From Parvularcula sp. BBD 1991-13 (lineage in GTDB: Bacteria; Pseudomonadota; Alphaproteobacteria; Caulobacterales; Parvularculaceae), in assembly GCA_001657385.1 (NCBI GenBank), contig LYSZ01000006.1, positions 124,001-188,000 of the forward strand: 64,000 bases of DNA, read 5' to 3'. A model generated the notes under the pieces. That model did no database searches, was not told the DNA's origin, and worked only from the letters and a program-made list of their open reading frames with translations. Below, piece by piece: positions 23,908 to 45,715 of this stretch. Each line of letters begins with the position of its first letter. Positions within the stretch are counted from its first letter, which is position 1. The position numbers were made by a program, and so were the translations under genes.

Positions 23908-23981
23908 GGCCACGTGGCGGAGTGGTGACGCAGCGGCCTGCAAAGCCGTGTACGCCGGTTCGATTCCGGCCGTGGCCTCCA
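23908..23981 (+). tRNA. tRNA-Cys (anticodon GCA)
   Basis: A 74-base cloverleaf. The acceptor stem GGCCACG pairs with CGTGGCC (23971-23977), followed by U73 and an encoded CCA end. The anticodon stem GCGGC/GCCGT holds the loop CTGCAAA with anticodon GCA, and the T arm GCCGG-TTCGATT-CCGGC is perfect. The gene sits immediately before the giant gene pair, with which it converges. Confidence 0.95.
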
Positions 23982-40129: not shown

Positions 40130-41422
40130 ATGCTCAGAAAACTCGCAACCATCGCCGGCACTCTCGGCGCGATCGCCATCGTGATCGTCGGCGCGGCGGG
40201 CATTGTCCTGATGGGCCAGTTGCGGTCGGATCTCGAACGCGAGGAGCCTGAGGTCATCGCGCCGACCGTATTCTACACCATAGCGAGGGCGGAGCCGGTG
40301 ACGCTCGACGTCAGCTCGCAGGGAGAGGTTCGTCCCCGCACGGACATTTCCCTGACGGCGCAGGTGGCCGGGCGCGTCGTCGCCGTCTCGGACAAGTTCG
40401 TCAATGGCGGCGCCTTCGAGAAAGGCGACATCCTGGTGCGGATCGAGGATACCGATTACCGCGCCGCCGCCGCCACCGCCAGGGCGCGCGTCGCCCAGAC
40501 CGAGCAGGCCCTGCGCCGCGAGGAGGCCGAGGCGGCGCTCGCCCGCGAGGACTTCGAGGATCTCGGGCTCGACGACGACCCCACCGAACTGACCCTGCGC
40601 ATCCCGCAACTCGCCCAGGCGCGCGCGGACTACGAAGCCGCGCAGGCCGAGCGCCGCGCCGCGGAAATCAACCTTCAGCGCACCGTCATCCGCGCGCCGT
40701 TCAAGGGCCGGGTGCGCGAGCGCCTGGCGGGGGTCGGCCAGTTCGCCGGCGCCGGCGCGGAGTTGGGCCGGATCTTTTCGACCGACATCGCGGAAATCCG
40801 CCTGCCCCTCAACGACAACGACCTCGCAAAGCTCGGCATACCGATCGATTTCAGCGAAAGCAAGGACAATCCGGGGCCGAAGGTCGAGCTTTCGGCGGTC
40901 ATCGCCGGCGAGTTTCACCGCTGGGAAGGGCGCATCGCCCGGTCGCAGGGCGCGATCGACGCCGCCACCCGGCAGGTCTTCGTGATCGCCGTCGTGGAAG
41001 ATCCTTACGGCGCCGGCGCTTCGCGCGGCCCGGATGGCGCGTCGGACAGTCCCTCGAACGGCGGGGCTCCGCTCGCCATGGGCCTTTTCGTCGATGCGAG
41101 CATCAGGGGCCGGCCGTATGAAAACGCCGTGATCCTGCCGCGCGCGGCGCTGCACGGCAGCGACCAGGTCTATGTCATCGACGAGGCCGACACCCTGCGG
41201 GCGCGCACGGTGACCATCGTGTCGAGCGATCGCGACACCATCACCGTTTCCGCCGGGGTCAGCGACGGCGAACGCATCGCCGCCTCGCCCCTGCGCGGCG
41301 CCCGCGACGGCAGCCCCGTGACGCCGATCGATCCCGACGCGCCGCCCGCGTCCTCGTCCAGCGTCGCCGATCTCGGCGCCGAAAGCGAGCGCGGCGGCGA
41401 CAGCAGCGGAGGCGTGCAGTGA
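40130..41422 (+). CDS. RND efflux periplasmic adaptor (membrane fusion protein)
   Basis: 430 residues. One N-terminal membrane helix (about 5-28), then beta-strands and a lipoyl/hairpin region: SQGEVRPRTDISLTAQVAGRVVAVSDKFVNGGAFEKGDILVRIEDTDY is the biotinyl-lipoyl-like half, followed by the alpha-hairpin, LQRTVIRAPFKGRVRERL and the beta-barrel domain. It bridges inner-membrane pump and outer channel. The C-terminal 50 residues are acidic/Ser-rich. Its stop overlaps the permease GTG start by four bases, so the two are translationally coupled. Confidence 0.95.
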   Translation: MLRKLATIAGTLGAIAIVIVGAAGIVLMGQLRSDLEREEPEVIAPTVFYTIARAEPVTLDVSSQGEVRPRTDISLTAQVAGRVVAVSDKFVNGGAFEKGDILVRIEDTDYRAAAATARARVAQTEQALRREEAEAALAREDFEDLGLDDDPTELTLRIPQLAQARADYEAAQAERRAAEINLQRTVIRAPFKGRVRERLAGVGQFAGAGAELGRIFSTDIAEIRLPLNDNDLAKLGIPIDFSESKDNPGPKVELSAVIAGEFHRWEGRIARSQGAIDAATRQVFVIAVVEDPYGAGASRGPDGASDSPSNGGAPLAMGLFVDASIRGRPYENAVILPRAALHGSDQVYVIDEADTLRARTVTIVSSDRDTITVSAGVSDGERIAASPLRGARDGSPVTPIDPDAPPASSSSVADLGAESERGGDSSGGVQ

Positions 41423-44400
41423 ACGGATTGATCGAATGGTGGACGCGCAATTCGGTCGCCGCCAACCTTCTCATGGTCACCTGTTTCGTTGCGGGCACCC
41501 TCGCCTTCTTCCAACTTGAGCGCGAGCTGAACCCGTCCGCGACCTTTAACGGCGCCAACATCAATGTCGGCTGGCCCGGCGCTTCGCCGGTGGAAATCGA
41601 GGAGCAGATCATTCTGCGCATCGAGGAAGCGCTCGCCGATGTCGACGGGATCGAGCACATTACCGCCACGGCCCGCGAGGGCAGCGCCTCGATCAACGTG
41701 GAAGGCGACGACGACATCGACGTAACGCGCTTCCTGAACGAGTTGAAAAACCGGCTCGACGGGGTGGCGACCCTGCCGAGCGACGTCGAACCGCCGACCG
41801 TCTCGCAGTGGCGCAACGAGGACCCGGGCATGTTCATGTCGCTGTACGGCGACATGGACGAGCGCGAACTCAGCCGTCTGGCGCGGACCATGCGCGACGA
41901 GCTCGCGCAACTGCCGGGGGGCTCGCCGCTGGTCGAGGTCTGGGGCGACCGCCAGGAGGAAGTCTCGATCGAGGTTTCCGAGGAATCCCTGCAACGCTAC
42001 GGGCTGACATTCGACGACGTGACGAACGCGATCCAGGGCGCCTCCGTCAACATCGCCGGCGGCCAGGTGCGCACCGAAACGGGCAATGTGCAGCTCGCGG
42101 CGCGGTCCCTTGCCGACACCCGCGAGGAGTTCGAGCGGATTATCGTCCGCCAGACCCCCGAGGGGGGCGTGATCCGGGTCGCCGACGTGGCGACCGTCGT
42201 CGACGGGTTCGAGGAAACGCGCCAGATCCGGACCACCAACGGCAAGCGCTCGATCACCCTCGCCGTGCGCTCGCCGGAGACCTCGGACATCACCACCCTG
42301 TCCCGGGTGGTGAACGAGTGGGTCGAGGCGAAGAATAAGGAACTGGACGGGCGGGCGGAGATCCTGATCTGGTTCGACGGGGCCGAACCGTTCAACGGCC
42401 AGCTCGGACTGGTCGCGTCGAACGCCTTTGTCGGCCTGATCCTGGTCTTGATCATCCTGATGCTGTTCCTGCGGCCCGCCGTCGCCTTCTGGGTGGCGAT
42501 CGGGATCGCCATCGCCTTTACCGGCGCGTTCATCCTCATGCCGGCGACGGGCGTGTCGCTGAACTTCCTGTCGATCTTCGGATTTTTGCTGGTGATCGGG
42601 GTCGTGGTGGACGACGCGATCATCGTCGGCGAGAGCATCCACAACCAGGTCGAGGACGGCAACAAGGGCGTAGACGGCGCCATTCTCGGCACGCAGCTCG
42701 TCCTGAAGCCGGTTTTCTTCGCCGTGCTGACCACCATGATCGCCTTTTCGCCGTGGCTTTTCATCGGCGGCGGCGCGGCGCAGTTCACCCGCCAGATCAG
42801 CCTGACGGTGATCTATGCGCTCACCTTCTCGCTGGTCGAGGCGTTCCTTATCCTGCCGGCGCACCTGTCGCATATGAAGCCGCAGAACAAGCACGGCGTC
42901 TACTACCGGCTGCAACGGGTGTTCGCCGAGGGCATCCTGACCTTCGCCGACCGGTTCTACCGCCCGGTGATCAAGACCGCGCTGCGCCTGCGCTACATGA
43001 CGGTGGCGGGCTTTTTCGTCGCCCTCGCCTTTTCGGTCGCACTGATCGCGCAGGGGTGGATTTCCTTCAAGTTCATGCCCGAAATTCAGGGTACGTTCAT
43101 TTCCGTGAATGTCCGCCTGCCGGAAGGCGCCGCTTTCAGCCGCACCGAACAGGTCTATGACGACGTTTCGCGCGCGGCGAACAGCCTCAAGCGGCGGCTT
43201 GGCGACGCTGAAAACGGCGAGCCGTATGTCAGCACGATCTATGTGAGCGCGGAAGAGACCAGCGTCACCTCCTACGTCACCATTGTCGAGGCGACGCACC
43301 GTTCGGAATCGACCAAGGACGTCGCGGACATGTTCCGCGAAGAACTCGGTGAAATTCCCGATGCGGAGGAAATCACCGTCGGCTTCACCCAGAATGAGGG
43401 CGGGCCCGGCCTCGTCTTCGGTGTCGAGGCGAACGACCTGGAGGAGTTGCGCCTGGCGACGGTGGATCTGCAGAACTATCTGAAAACCATTCCCAACGCC
43501 TATGACGTGCGCAACAACCTGCAATCGGCGACGCCTGAAATCAGGCTGGCGCTCAAGCCGGGCGCGGAACGGTTCGGACTGACGCTCGGCGAGGTGTCGC
43601 GCCAGGTGCGTCAGGCTTTCTACGGCCAGGAAGTGCAGCGCCTGCCCCGCGACGGCGAGGACGTGCGCGTGATGGTCCGCTATCCCCGCTCGGCGCGCGA
43701 ATCCCTCACCACCATCGAGGAGATGCGCATCCGCACGCCGGACGGGCGCGAAGTGCCGCTCACCGCCGTCGCCGAGGCGTCCTTCGCGCCGAGCTTCAAC
43801 CGGATCGAGCGGCGCGACCGCATGCGCTCGGCCCGCATCACCGCGGAGCTGCGCGAGGGCGCCGACCGCGCCCAGATCATGAAGGACTACAACGAAGCTT
43901 TCCTGCCGGAATTCCGCAGCCGGCACCCCGGCGTCAATCTCGGCCAGCGCGGCGACGCGGAGGAGCAGGCGGACTTTCTCGGCGAGTTTCTCTCGCTTTA
44001 CGCGGTCGCGCTTTTCCTCATGTACATGCTGCTCGCCATCGCTTTCAGTTCCTACTGGCAACCGGCGCTGATCATGACCGCGATTCCCTTCGGCTATATG
44101 GGCGCGGCGTTCGGCCACTTTCTCCTCGGCCTCGACTTCGCCCTGTTCTCGTTCTTCGGGGTCGGCGCGGCGGCGGGCGTGGTCGTCAACGACAACCTCG
44201 TCCTGATCGATTACGTGAACCGCCTGCGCCGCGAGGGGGAAGGCGCCTTCGCCGCCCTGGTCAAGGCCGGCGTCGGCCGCTTCCGACCGATCATGCTGAC
44301 GTCGGTGACGACCTTTATCGGCCTGTTGCCGATCATGTTCGAACAGTCCACGGACGCGCAGTTCCTGAAGCCGACCATCGTGGCGCTGGCGTTCGGCGTG

Positions 44401-44628
44401 TTCTTCGCGACCTTCGTAACGCTGATCTTCGTGCCGGCGATGTACGCGGTCGGCGCGGATATCGCGCGCTTTTACCGCTGGGCCTGGACGGGCGAGAAAC
44501 AACCTTCGCTGGGCCACGGCGAATCGGAAAAAAGCGATTTCTGGGGCTCGCCAGAAAACCGCGAATCGGGCGATTCGACCGTCGACAAGCAGAAAAGCGG
44601 CAATCCGCTCTGGCGGCCCGCCGAATAG
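41419..44628 (+). CDS. RND efflux inner-membrane permease (AcrB/HAE1-like)
   Basis: 1069 residues, 12 helices with two large periplasmic loops. The helix-4 acidic pair is in LLVIGVVVDDAIIVGESI. The helix-10 motif reads GVVVNDNLVLID, where AcrB has a Lys; an Asp in place of the Lys is usual in one RND subfamily, so proton coupling may differ in detail. Start is GTG at 41419, overlapping the adaptor stop by four bases. Drug or metabolite efflux with the adaptor and lipoprotein channel is expected; the substrate is unknown. The acidic C-terminal tail beyond the last helix is about 50 residues. Confidence 0.95.
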   Translation: MNGLIEWWTRNSVAANLLMVTCFVAGTLAFFQLERELNPSATFNGANINVGWPGASPVEIEEQIILRIEEALADVDGIEHITATAREGSASINVEGDDDIDVTRFLNELKNRLDGVATLPSDVEPPTVSQWRNEDPGMFMSLYGDMDERELSRLARTMRDELAQLPGGSPLVEVWGDRQEEVSIEVSEESLQRYGLTFDDVTNAIQGASVNIAGGQVRTETGNVQLAARSLADTREEFERIIVRQTPEGGVIRVADVATVVDGFEETRQIRTTNGKRSITLAVRSPETSDITTLSRVVNEWVEAKNKELDGRAEILIWFDGAEPFNGQLGLVASNAFVGLILVLIILMLFLRPAVAFWVAIGIAIAFTGAFILMPATGVSLNFLSIFGFLLVIGVVVDDAIIVGESIHNQVEDGNKGVDGAILGTQLVLKPVFFAVLTTMIAFSPWLFIGGGAAQFTRQISLTVIYALTFSLVEAFLILPAHLSHMKPQNKHGVYYRLQRVFAEGILTFADRFYRPVIKTALRLRYMTVAGFFVALAFSVALIAQGWISFKFMPEIQGTFISVNVRLPEGAAFSRTEQVYDDVSRAANSLKRRLGDAENGEPYVSTIYVSAEETSVTSYVTIVEATHRSESTKDVADMFREELGEIPDAEEITVGFTQNEGGPGLVFGVEANDLEELRLATVDLQNYLKTIPNAYDVRNNLQSATPEIRLALKPGAERFGLTLGEVSRQVRQAFYGQEVQRLPRDGEDVRVMVRYPRSARESLTTIEEMRIRTPDGREVPLTAVAEASFAPSFNRIERRDRMRSARITAELREGADRAQIMKDYNEAFLPEFRSRHPGVNLGQRGDAEEQADFLGEFLSLYAVALFLMYMLLAIAFSSYWQPALIMTAIPFGYMGAAFGHFLLGLDFALFSFFGVGAAAGVVVNDNLVLIDYVNRLRREGEGAFAALVKAGVGRFRPIMLTSVTTFIGLLPIMFEQSTDAQFLKPTIVALAFGVFFATFVTLIFVPAMYAVGADIARFYRWAWTGEKQPSLGHGESEKSDFWGSPENRESGDSTVDKQKSGNPLWRPAE

Positions 44629-44660
44629 GCGAAGTCTCTTTTTGCCGACAACCAGCGGTT

Positions 44661-44675
44661 TTAACGAAATGTTAA
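44661..44675 (+). promoter_or_regulatory. CtrA box TTAA-N7-TTAA
   Basis: TTAACGAAATGTTAA, an exact match to the CtrA box consensus known from Caulobacter and relatives. It lies between two genes whose 3' ends face each other (RND permease and hisG), where no coding gene would use it, but directly before a candidate small RNA ending in a terminator. Confidence 0.6.
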
Positions 44676-44695
44676 GACTTTGCCGTCATCGTGAA

Positions 44696-44790
44696 AGCGT
44701 CTTCTCCCGAGAAGATACCCCACCATACCCCACGACAGTGAGTACCGGCCCCGCTTCCCCCAAGGCGGGGCCGTCTCGCTTTTAGGCGCG
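44696..44790 (+). ncRNA. Candidate CtrA-linked small RNA
   Basis: About 85-95 bases. A 5' inverted repeat TCTTCTC-CC-GAGAAGA (44700-44715) is followed by a C-rich single-stranded stretch with two copies of ATACCCCAC (44715-44723 and 44725-44733), then the strong terminator hairpin. C-rich repeats that can pair with G-rich ribosome-binding sites, two hairpins and a U-rich end are the usual build of a trans-acting sRNA. The 5' end is inferred from the CtrA box position; no -10 box is obvious. Confidence 0.45.
44746..44785 (+). terminator. Rho-independent terminator
   Basis: CGGCCCCGC (44746-44754) pairs perfectly with GCGGGGCCG (44765-44773) across a 10-base loop, followed by tctcgctttt. A tandem copy of the tail (CTCGCTTTTAGGCGCG at 44775 and 44793, period 18) follows. 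It would end the RND operon and the candidate small RNA. Confidence 0.75.
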
Positions 44791-44827
44791 CGCTCGCTTT
44801 TAGGCGCGAGGCGGGGCGGCCTTTGCG

Positions 44828-45715
44828 TCAGGCCATCATTTTCTCGATCGGCAGGACGAGGATGGCGCTGGCGCCGAGTTTTTTCAGGTCCTCAAGCGTG
44901 TCCCAGAAAACGCTCTCGCGGCAGACGGCGTGGATCGCCACCTTGTCGGAGGACCCCGCCAGTTCGAGCACCGTCGGCGCGTCCGCGCCGGGAAGGTATT
45001 CCGTAATCGCCGCAACCGCGTCGCGGGGCGCGTTCATCATCACATATTTTGCATCGCGCGAGGTCAAAACGCCGTTGATCCGCTTCATCAGGGCGTCGAA
45101 CACGGCCTGCTTGCCCGGCGTGAAATCGGCGGCGTTCCGTATCAGGAGCGCCTGTGAATCGAACACCTCCGCCACGGGTTTCAGGCCGTTGGCGTCCAGC
45201 GTCGCGCCGGTGGAAACGATGTCGCAGACGGCGTCGGCGATTTTCAGGCGCGGCGCCACTTCGACCGACCCCTTCATCATCACCGCGCGGGCGTTGACCC
45301 CTTCGCGGGCGAGCCAGGCCCTCGTCAGTTCCGGATAGGACGTCGCCACGCGGCGTCCCTCCAGCATGTCCGCCCCGTCGAACGACCATTCCTTGGGCGC
45401 GGCGAGCATCAGCTTGCAGCGGGCGAAACCGAGCGGCATCACCTCAACCGCCGGCGCATCATGCTCGCCCGCGAGGCGCTCCTCCTCGAACACGTTCTGG
45501 CCGACAATGCCGATGTCGCAGGCGTTGTCGGCGACGAAGGAGGGAATGTCGTCGTCGCGCAGCAGCAACACGTCGATCGGCAATTCGCGCACGCGGCCGT
45601 ATAGCTTATCCTTGCCGCGGGAAACCTTCAGCCCGCAGCTTTTGAGAAGGTCGAAACTGCCTTCCGAGAGGCGGCCCGATTTCTGGATGGCGATCCGCAG
45701 TCGTTCTTCGCTCAT
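44828..45715 (-). CDS. hisG: ATP phosphoribosyltransferase, long form
   Basis: 295 residues, first enzyme of histidine synthesis (ATP + PRPP). RIAIQKSGRLSEGSFDLLKSCGL at the N-terminus, DIGIVGQNVFEE and the PRPP loop DIVSTGATLDANGLKPV are diagnostic. The length shows the C-terminal ACT-like regulatory domain, so HisZ is not required. Its start overlaps the stop of the TrpR-like regulator gene by four bases (ATGA), a translational coupling. No other his genes are in the window. Confidence 0.96.
   Translation of the reverse strand: MSEERLRIAIQKSGRLSEGSFDLLKSCGLKVSRGKDKLYGRVRELPIDVLLLRDDDIPSFVADNACDIGIVGQNVFEEERLAGEHDAPAVEVMPLGFARCKLMLAAPKEWSFDGADMLEGRRVATSYPELTRAWLAREGVNARAVMMKGSVEVAPRLKIADAVCDIVSTGATLDANGLKPVAEVFDSQALLIRNAADFTPGKQAVFDALMKRINGVLTSRDAKYVMMNAPRDAVAAITEYLPGADAPTVLELAGSSDKVAIHAVCRESVFWDTLEDLKKLGASAILVLPIEKMMA

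Follow-up and report, generated by a model that had tools for sequence, protein, structure and literature searches.

A conserved candidate small RNA gene behind a CtrA box in Parvularcula and its relation to the Caulobacter RNA CC0196

The window analysed here, a stretch of 64,000 nucleotides (nt) from the alphaproteobacterium Parvularcula sp. BBD 1991-13 (order Caulobacterales, family Parvularculaceae; contig LYSZ01000006.1, positions 124,001 to 188,000), carries a CtrA box and an adjoining RNA element between two converging genes, encoding a resistance-nodulation-division (RND) efflux permease and HisG. The RNA element is conserved in sequence and structure, the box lies at a fixed distance from it, and homologues can be followed through intermediates to the Caulobacter RNA CC0196. 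The window's genome encodes CtrA (86 % identity to the query) as well as GcrA. The element is probably a free-standing small RNA (sRNA) gene of approximately 85 nt that is activated by phosphorylated CtrA (CtrA~P), acts by an antisense C-rich strand and represents a divergent homologue of CC0196.

The predicted small RNA gene

The features of the locus, in coordinates of the window, are the following.

44661..44675, + strand: CtrA box TTAACGAAATGTTAA, a palindromic full site, read directly
44676..44698, + strand: promoter spacer, from the alignment; -10 element not recognisable by consensus
44699..44783, + strand: predicted small RNA of about 85 nt, with predicted ends, from conservation and the match of covariance model R1 (G000:C12:168699-168783)
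44699..44716, + strand: 5' hairpin GUCUUCU-CCCG-AGAAGAU, from folding and the covariance structure
44717..44737, + strand: C-rich stretch ACCCCACCAUACCCCACGACA, unpaired in the covariance structure, the presumed pairing region
44738..44779, + strand: terminator with an outer stem GUGAG/CUCGC (44738-44742 with 44775-44779) and an inner stem (44746-44773), from the fold and compensatory changes
44780..44783, + strand: short U-run, read directly
41419..44628, + strand: RND efflux permease gene (Pfam ACR_tran), upstream context
44828..45715, - strand: hisG (Pfam HisG), converging, context

An earlier note on this DNA had described the box, an inverted repeat, a tandem repeat and a terminator within a 199-base gap, and all of these were recovered at the same coordinates. 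The gap between the stop of the RND permease gene (44628) and the 3' end of hisG (44828) comprises 199 bases, the inverted repeat TCTTCT-CCCG-AGAAGA is read directly at 44700-44715, and ATACCCCAC occurs twice with a period of 10 (44715-44723 and 44725-44733). The terminator-like hairpin at 44746-44773 carries the tail TCTCGCTTTT, and the U-run 3' of the stem is short (CGCTTTT). The RNA size of about 90 bases that had been proposed agrees with the 85-90 bases that fit the locus.

The sequence TTAA-N7-TTAA is found once in the 64-kb window, compared with 0.01 occurrences expected from shuffles. The whole 4.24-Mb genome holds 34 such sites, compared with 21 for a reversed-pattern control; at the genome-wide rate, approximately 0.0016 sites are expected per 199-base gap. 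The RNA at 44690-44785 has a predicted folding energy of -38.2 kcal/mol, which is lower than that of every one of 200 shuffles (mean -22.25, z -4.88).

Conservation of the box and the RNA

A search with the DNA of the gap (E <= 0.01) gave a match in 32 of 60 relatives, the window's own genome included, a few of the matches being short and weak, and the best-conserved part of the gap proved to be approximately 44699-44783. Thirty aligned loci share one order of parts, namely the box, about 23 nt of spacer, a hairpin starting with (A/G)TCTTCTCC, the C-rich stretch and the terminator; one of them (L030), which comes from a different family of the order, shares the 5' part and has a terminator of its own. 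Of the 30 boxes, 29 are exact and one (L018) reads TTTA-N7-TTAA, and all of them start 39-41 nt 5' of TCTTCTCC, which corresponds to 38-40 nt 5' of the predicted RNA start (38 nt in the window, counted to a predicted, unmapped start). The C-rich stretch at 44717-44737 is nearly invariant across 28 loci of the window's family. The exact tandem of ATACCCCAC, which had been put forward as the seed, is present within this family, and elsewhere the second copy differs.

Two covariance models were built without the box, R1 from the RNA part of the 28 window-family loci and R2 from 43 loci. R1 (E <= 0.05) found a match in 107 of 299 genomes of the order, including 48 of the 60 window-family genomes shown, while R2 found one in 16 of 289 genomes of the class and in 50 of 75 genomes in the genus of genome G190. 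A box with at most one mismatch stands 38-41 nt upstream of 31/34 loci (R1, order), 14/14 loci (R2, class) and 37/37 loci (R2, genus of G190), and it is exact in 11, 12 and 18 of these, respectively. Control positions around the same loci gave 1 box in 13,600, none in 5,314 and none in 14,837, or 1 in 33,751 in total. When distinct loci are pooled, 80 of 83 carry the box with at most one mismatch (40 of them exactly) and three (L065, L068 and L073) carry it with two, although such counts overstate independence, because the loci share descent and are not independent events. The order set consists of 40 R1 match places less six (L071, L080, L090, L092, L093 and L098) that were taken as false matches because they are without a ACCCCACCAT-like core; the class set of 17 R2 match rows less three, namely that of the window itself, L113, in which the core is missing, and L111, at the end of a contig; and the G190-genus set of 37 places counted of 58 R2 match rows, with L086 and L088 belonging to two sets. 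When distant loci are compared, the TTAA halves prove constant, in contrast to the seven bases between them and to most of the flanking sequence.

The predicted structure is also conserved. Within the window's family, compensatory changes are present in 6 of 22 pairs, for example a change from G-C to C-G in the terminator stem of 6 of the 28 family loci. In the 43-locus alignment, which was fitted to the model and is hence biased towards it, 95.4 % of cells pair, compared with 49-57 % in slid versions, and changes on both sides are found in 18 of 22 pairs, a number as high as which was reached in none of 500 shuffles.

According to the earlier note, its reading would be refuted if box and seed were not conserved. 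The box, the C-rich core and the hairpins are conserved, and the distance from the box to the RNA start is kept across families, so that the proposal of a CtrA box driving an unannotated small RNA is well supported by comparison. The RNA is not, however, an isolated new one, as it belongs to a wider RF01519 family. The observation made at that time is confirmed and its interpretation appears to be supported in part, with the core claim standing on comparative evidence.

Variation was also seen around these conserved parts. In many members of the genus (L002-L024), the spacer is CTTGATGAGACCTTAA or a close form of it, with another TTAA, and it appears to constitute a further conserved promoter element in the genus, from which the window copy (44676-44698) has diverged. 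In four relatives from the window's family (L014, L021, L026 and L028), hardly any U-run follows the terminator stem, and 3' end formation may therefore differ there. One genome (G267) has two copies of the RNA (L066 and L067), with two TTAA-N7-TTAA boxes in a row at L066 and no tRNA-Asn nearby.

Relation to the Caulobacter RNA CC0196

The Caulobacter loci found correspond to Rfam RF01519, 'Caulobacter sRNA CC0196', of which we take Landt et al. 2008 to be the source; that study reportedly describes four sRNAs that vary in the cell cycle, one of them, which may or may not be CC0196, apparently CtrA-controlled. The locus L145 scores 95.2 bits and is identical to the 58-base consensus, and L088 and L116 score 65.7 and 61.7 bits, respectively. 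The RF01519 model did not match seven other family loci tested (L099, L067, L082, L079, L108, L105 and L060), nor the window RNA, either at the gathering cut-off (35 bits) or up to E 5 in 44600-44850, and it exceeded the cut-off in two relatives out of 60, but not in the genome of the window. R1, which contains no Caulobacter sequences, finds L088 (28.1 bits, E 0.014 in the genome of L088), a link that is weak in score, but the box is found at an unchanged distance in these loci. Since the window RNA does not reach the RF01519 cut-off, it is regarded as a homologue through intermediates and not as an RF01519 member. To judge from these comparisons, it appears to be a divergent homologue, unrecognised by Rfam, of a known and uncharacterised Caulobacter RNA. 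The two RNAs share the order of parts, the box, the 5' hairpin, the CCCACCAU core and a terminator (followed by tRNA-Asn in the case of CC0196), whereas the window RNA has ACCCCACCAU-ACCCCAC, another terminator and no tRNA-Asn behind it. The RF01519 consensus as shown has its start within the 5' hairpin, and the terminator is the only part that it pairs.

By position, CC0196 may be the C. crescentus RNA CCNA_R0004, which the accessible part of PMC5988900 gives as 'Cell cycle regulated', with a transcription start site at 210993 and with no full and one half CtrA site, and which does not appear in the Hfq-enriched list of PMC11005374 as given in Table 1 of that paper. CCNA_R0025, R0094 and R0171, which have full CtrA sites according to the same part of PMC5988900, were considered as the C. 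crescentus counterpart and dropped once RF01519 had identified the family. In C. crescentus, 6 non-coding RNAs have both CtrA motifs and a chromatin immunoprecipitation signal, as stated in the accessible sections of PMC4287350. A literature search returned no paper on this RNA among the matches listed, the sole Caulobacter paper among them with strings of the CC0196, CCNA_R0004 or RF01519 type in its accessible text being PMC5988900; CCNA_R0138 was looked for in this search and not found, and no sRNA words were found in the text of PMC7200025. The Caulobacter branch of the wider family is named, and no known function was found for it.

Distribution and genomic neighbourhood

A scan of named genomes with a pattern of box plus core, which contains the box and therefore provides organism names and no test of the box itself, gave at least 117 stretches. 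Among the 80 matches listed, five are titled only Proteobacteria or Pseudomonadota and the rest are alphaproteobacteria, namely Parvularculaceae (including Marinicaulis), Maricaulis, Hyphomonas, Hirschia, Hellea, Robiginitomaculum, Woodsholea, Aquidulcibacter, Phenylobacterium, Caulobacter, Rhizomicrobium as well as unclassified members. With model R3, of which the box is a part, a match was obtained in 18 of 385 genomes of the class, and the RNA family appears to be absent from most of the class at the sensitivity of this model. Matches outside the order fall into six families of the sample (f8, f9, f95, f120, f127 and f141). The C-rich strand keeps CCCACCAU across the sampled class, with CCCACCAA in L108 and L109 and either CCCACCAA or a shifted form of it in L147 and L148.

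Of 50 loci, 49 have a tRNA-Asn(GTT) gene downstream of the RNA and on its strand, as do 23 of 28 further loci, from the window's family. In three of the five exceptions the locus stops at the RNA or shortly behind it, and the other two are the window's own (L001) and L011. Upstream of the RNA, tRNA-Cys(GCA) is present in 21 of the 50 loci. The claim that the box serves no coding gene is borne out within the window gap, where there is no other downstream gene on the box strand, although in most relatives tRNA-Asn follows. The only tRNA of the window, and the only RNA match of Rfam in it at the cut-offs of that database, is tRNA-Cys(GCA) at 23908-23981, which may be left over from an ancestral arrangement of tRNA-Cys, small RNA and tRNA-Asn in this order. 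At E <= 5, two sub-threshold Rfam matches fall in the gap, Acido-1 (on the opposite strand) and a microRNA family, both taken as chance. The window keeps the box and the RNA though the tRNA-Asn neighbour is gone, which favours a function of the RNA itself and suggests that the RNA is what is maintained in this genome. Located 3' of the terminator, where relatives have tRNA-Asn further on, is a 16-base direct repeat CTCGCTTTTAGGCGCG (44775-44790 and 44793-44808), which may be the mark of a rearrangement that deleted tRNA-Asn.

Genes found near the RNA in 196 loci, a number that includes several overlapping fetches of one place, encode PCMT methyltransferase (59), RND permease (45) and a TolC-like protein (26).

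Proposed mode of action

Phosphorylated CtrA would bind over the -35 region and activate transcription of the RNA gene, so that production of the RNA would be expected in the predivisional cell. In C. crescentus, promoters that CtrA activates have full motifs starting near -35 (at -39 in the case of ctrA P2), which exert their effect in predivisional cells, according to the accessible part of PMC4287350, and the box start at 38-41 nt before the predicted RNA start agrees with this geometry. In its likeness to such full-motif promoters, with TTAA-N7-TTAA beginning near -35 to -39 (PMC4287350, same part), the window differs in that the position of its box is relative to a predicted and not a mapped start. 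The 5' hairpin and the intrinsic terminator would keep the conserved C-rich single strand open, and this strand, with its core CCCACCAU, would act as an antisense partner of G-rich mRNA segments, in the simplest case close to ribosome-binding sites.

Several observations weigh against this proposal. R1 had no match in 12 of the 60 family genomes shown, some of which are rated 99-100 % complete, and the RNA can therefore be lost or diverge; moreover, one half of the box reads TTTA in several members of the order. A consensus scan of 44300-45100 revealed no sigma-70-like promoter and no recognisable -10 element. If CCNA_R0004 is CC0196, its low reads and the lack of an assigned phase in Table 1 of PMC5988900 count in the same direction. 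The targets expected for the seed did not emerge in the checks made, which comprised a near-complement search and the leaders of ctrA and gcrA, with no genome-wide screen. The near-complement GGGGTATGGTGGGGT, with up to two mismatches, was found at 6 places beyond the RNA gene in five genomes of the genus, compared with 5 for the reversed-pattern control, the RNA gene itself being found once per genome. The C-rich stretch (always that of the window) paired with 20 ctrA and 13 gcrA leaders on average no better than shuffles did (mean z -0.29 and -0.22, respectively), the leaders having been placed by a start-motif search in 20 of 23 and 13 of 23 cases.

At L343, near position 1500 in genome G007, a near-complement GGGGTAAGGTGGGGA stands directly behind a GTTAACCAAGGTTAAC motif, and this site may be a target or a chance occurrence.

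Alternative explanations

CtrA might repress or merely mark the promoter, the RNA then depending on a different factor for its synthesis and acting in the absence of CtrA. CtrA sites over the -10 region can repress (PMC4287350, accessible part), and extra TTAA motifs are found in the spacer of many genus members, such as CCTTAA just before the RNA start; the conserved full site, however, sits over -35, which the same part of that paper gives as the activating position, and repression is therefore considered unlikely.

The box and hairpins could also constitute a CtrA-controlled promoter and a leader or attenuator of the following tRNA-Asn, the short RNA being a by-product. The regular presence of tRNA-Asn downstream is in agreement with such an arrangement, but the window, L011 and the second copy L066 keep the box and the RNA with no tRNA-Asn nearby, the distance to the tRNA varies widely, and the RNA has its own terminator, with a U-run in most loci outside the family. 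As the C-rich core is, in addition, conserved more than a leader would need, this explanation seems quite improbable.

A third explanation draws on CcnA (CCNA_R0094) of C. crescentus, and assumes a CtrA-activated RNA whose CCCC base-pairs with GGGG in the leaders of ctrA and gcrA, providing feedback on cell-cycle regulators. The window RNA resembles CcnA in its promoter CtrA box and its single-stranded CCCC, but the 182-nt CcnA is encoded within the replication origin, whereas the RNA of the window measures about 85 nt and is located between the RND gene and hisG; this comparison is one of descriptions, that of CcnA being given in the accessible part of PMC8959179. GGGG-type runs are present in the ctrA leader of the window's genome. 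However, the leaders contain no conserved GUGGGG, and their pairing, on average no better than that of shuffles (single best z -1.75 for ctrA L291 and -2.25 for gcrA L295), speaks against feedback of the CcnA type, which is very unlikely here.

That the element is the 3' end or terminator of the RND permease mRNA, possibly a processed 3'-untranslated-region RNA, with an incidental TTAA box, is hardly credible, since, although the RNA starts 70 nt past the RND stop on the same strand and an RND-like gene precedes it in 45 of the 196 loci (of which those shown are from the family of the window), the neighbours in other families are different (PCMT methyltransferase, a TolC-like gene, tRNA-Cys) and the box, spacing and RNA stay.

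The proposed CtrA-activated small RNA also bears a likeness to the alphaR8 RNAs (SisA-D and MmgR), which have a weak hairpin, a pyrimidine-rich single strand and an intrinsic terminator, as described in the accessible part of PMC12559287. According to the same source, the alphaR8 core is UUUCCUCCCU and most copies adjoin an N-formylglutamate amidohydrolase gene; UUUCCUCCCU is absent from 44699-44783, and the core of the window RNA is a different one. The four Caulobacter alphaR8 promoters share no motif in that account (PMC12559287), whereas the family of the window RNA shares the CtrA box.

Conclusions

It seems fairly likely that in Caulobacterales, and in no fewer than six alphaproteobacterial families besides, the CtrA regulon holds an old and largely vertically inherited RNA gene, the wider CC0196 family, with a fixed promoter geometry and an ancestral location between tRNA-Cys and tRNA-Asn, of which the Parvularculaceae carry a variant with a doubled pairing motif. 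Few CtrA-controlled small RNAs have been characterised, and the occurrence of the same promoter geometry and core in several families provides a testable link between a cell-cycle master regulator and post-transcriptional control. If this is true, CtrA has a conserved post-transcriptional arm that has been named only at its Caulobacter end, and the orphan Caulobacter RNA CC0196 would become a family wide enough for comparative target prediction.
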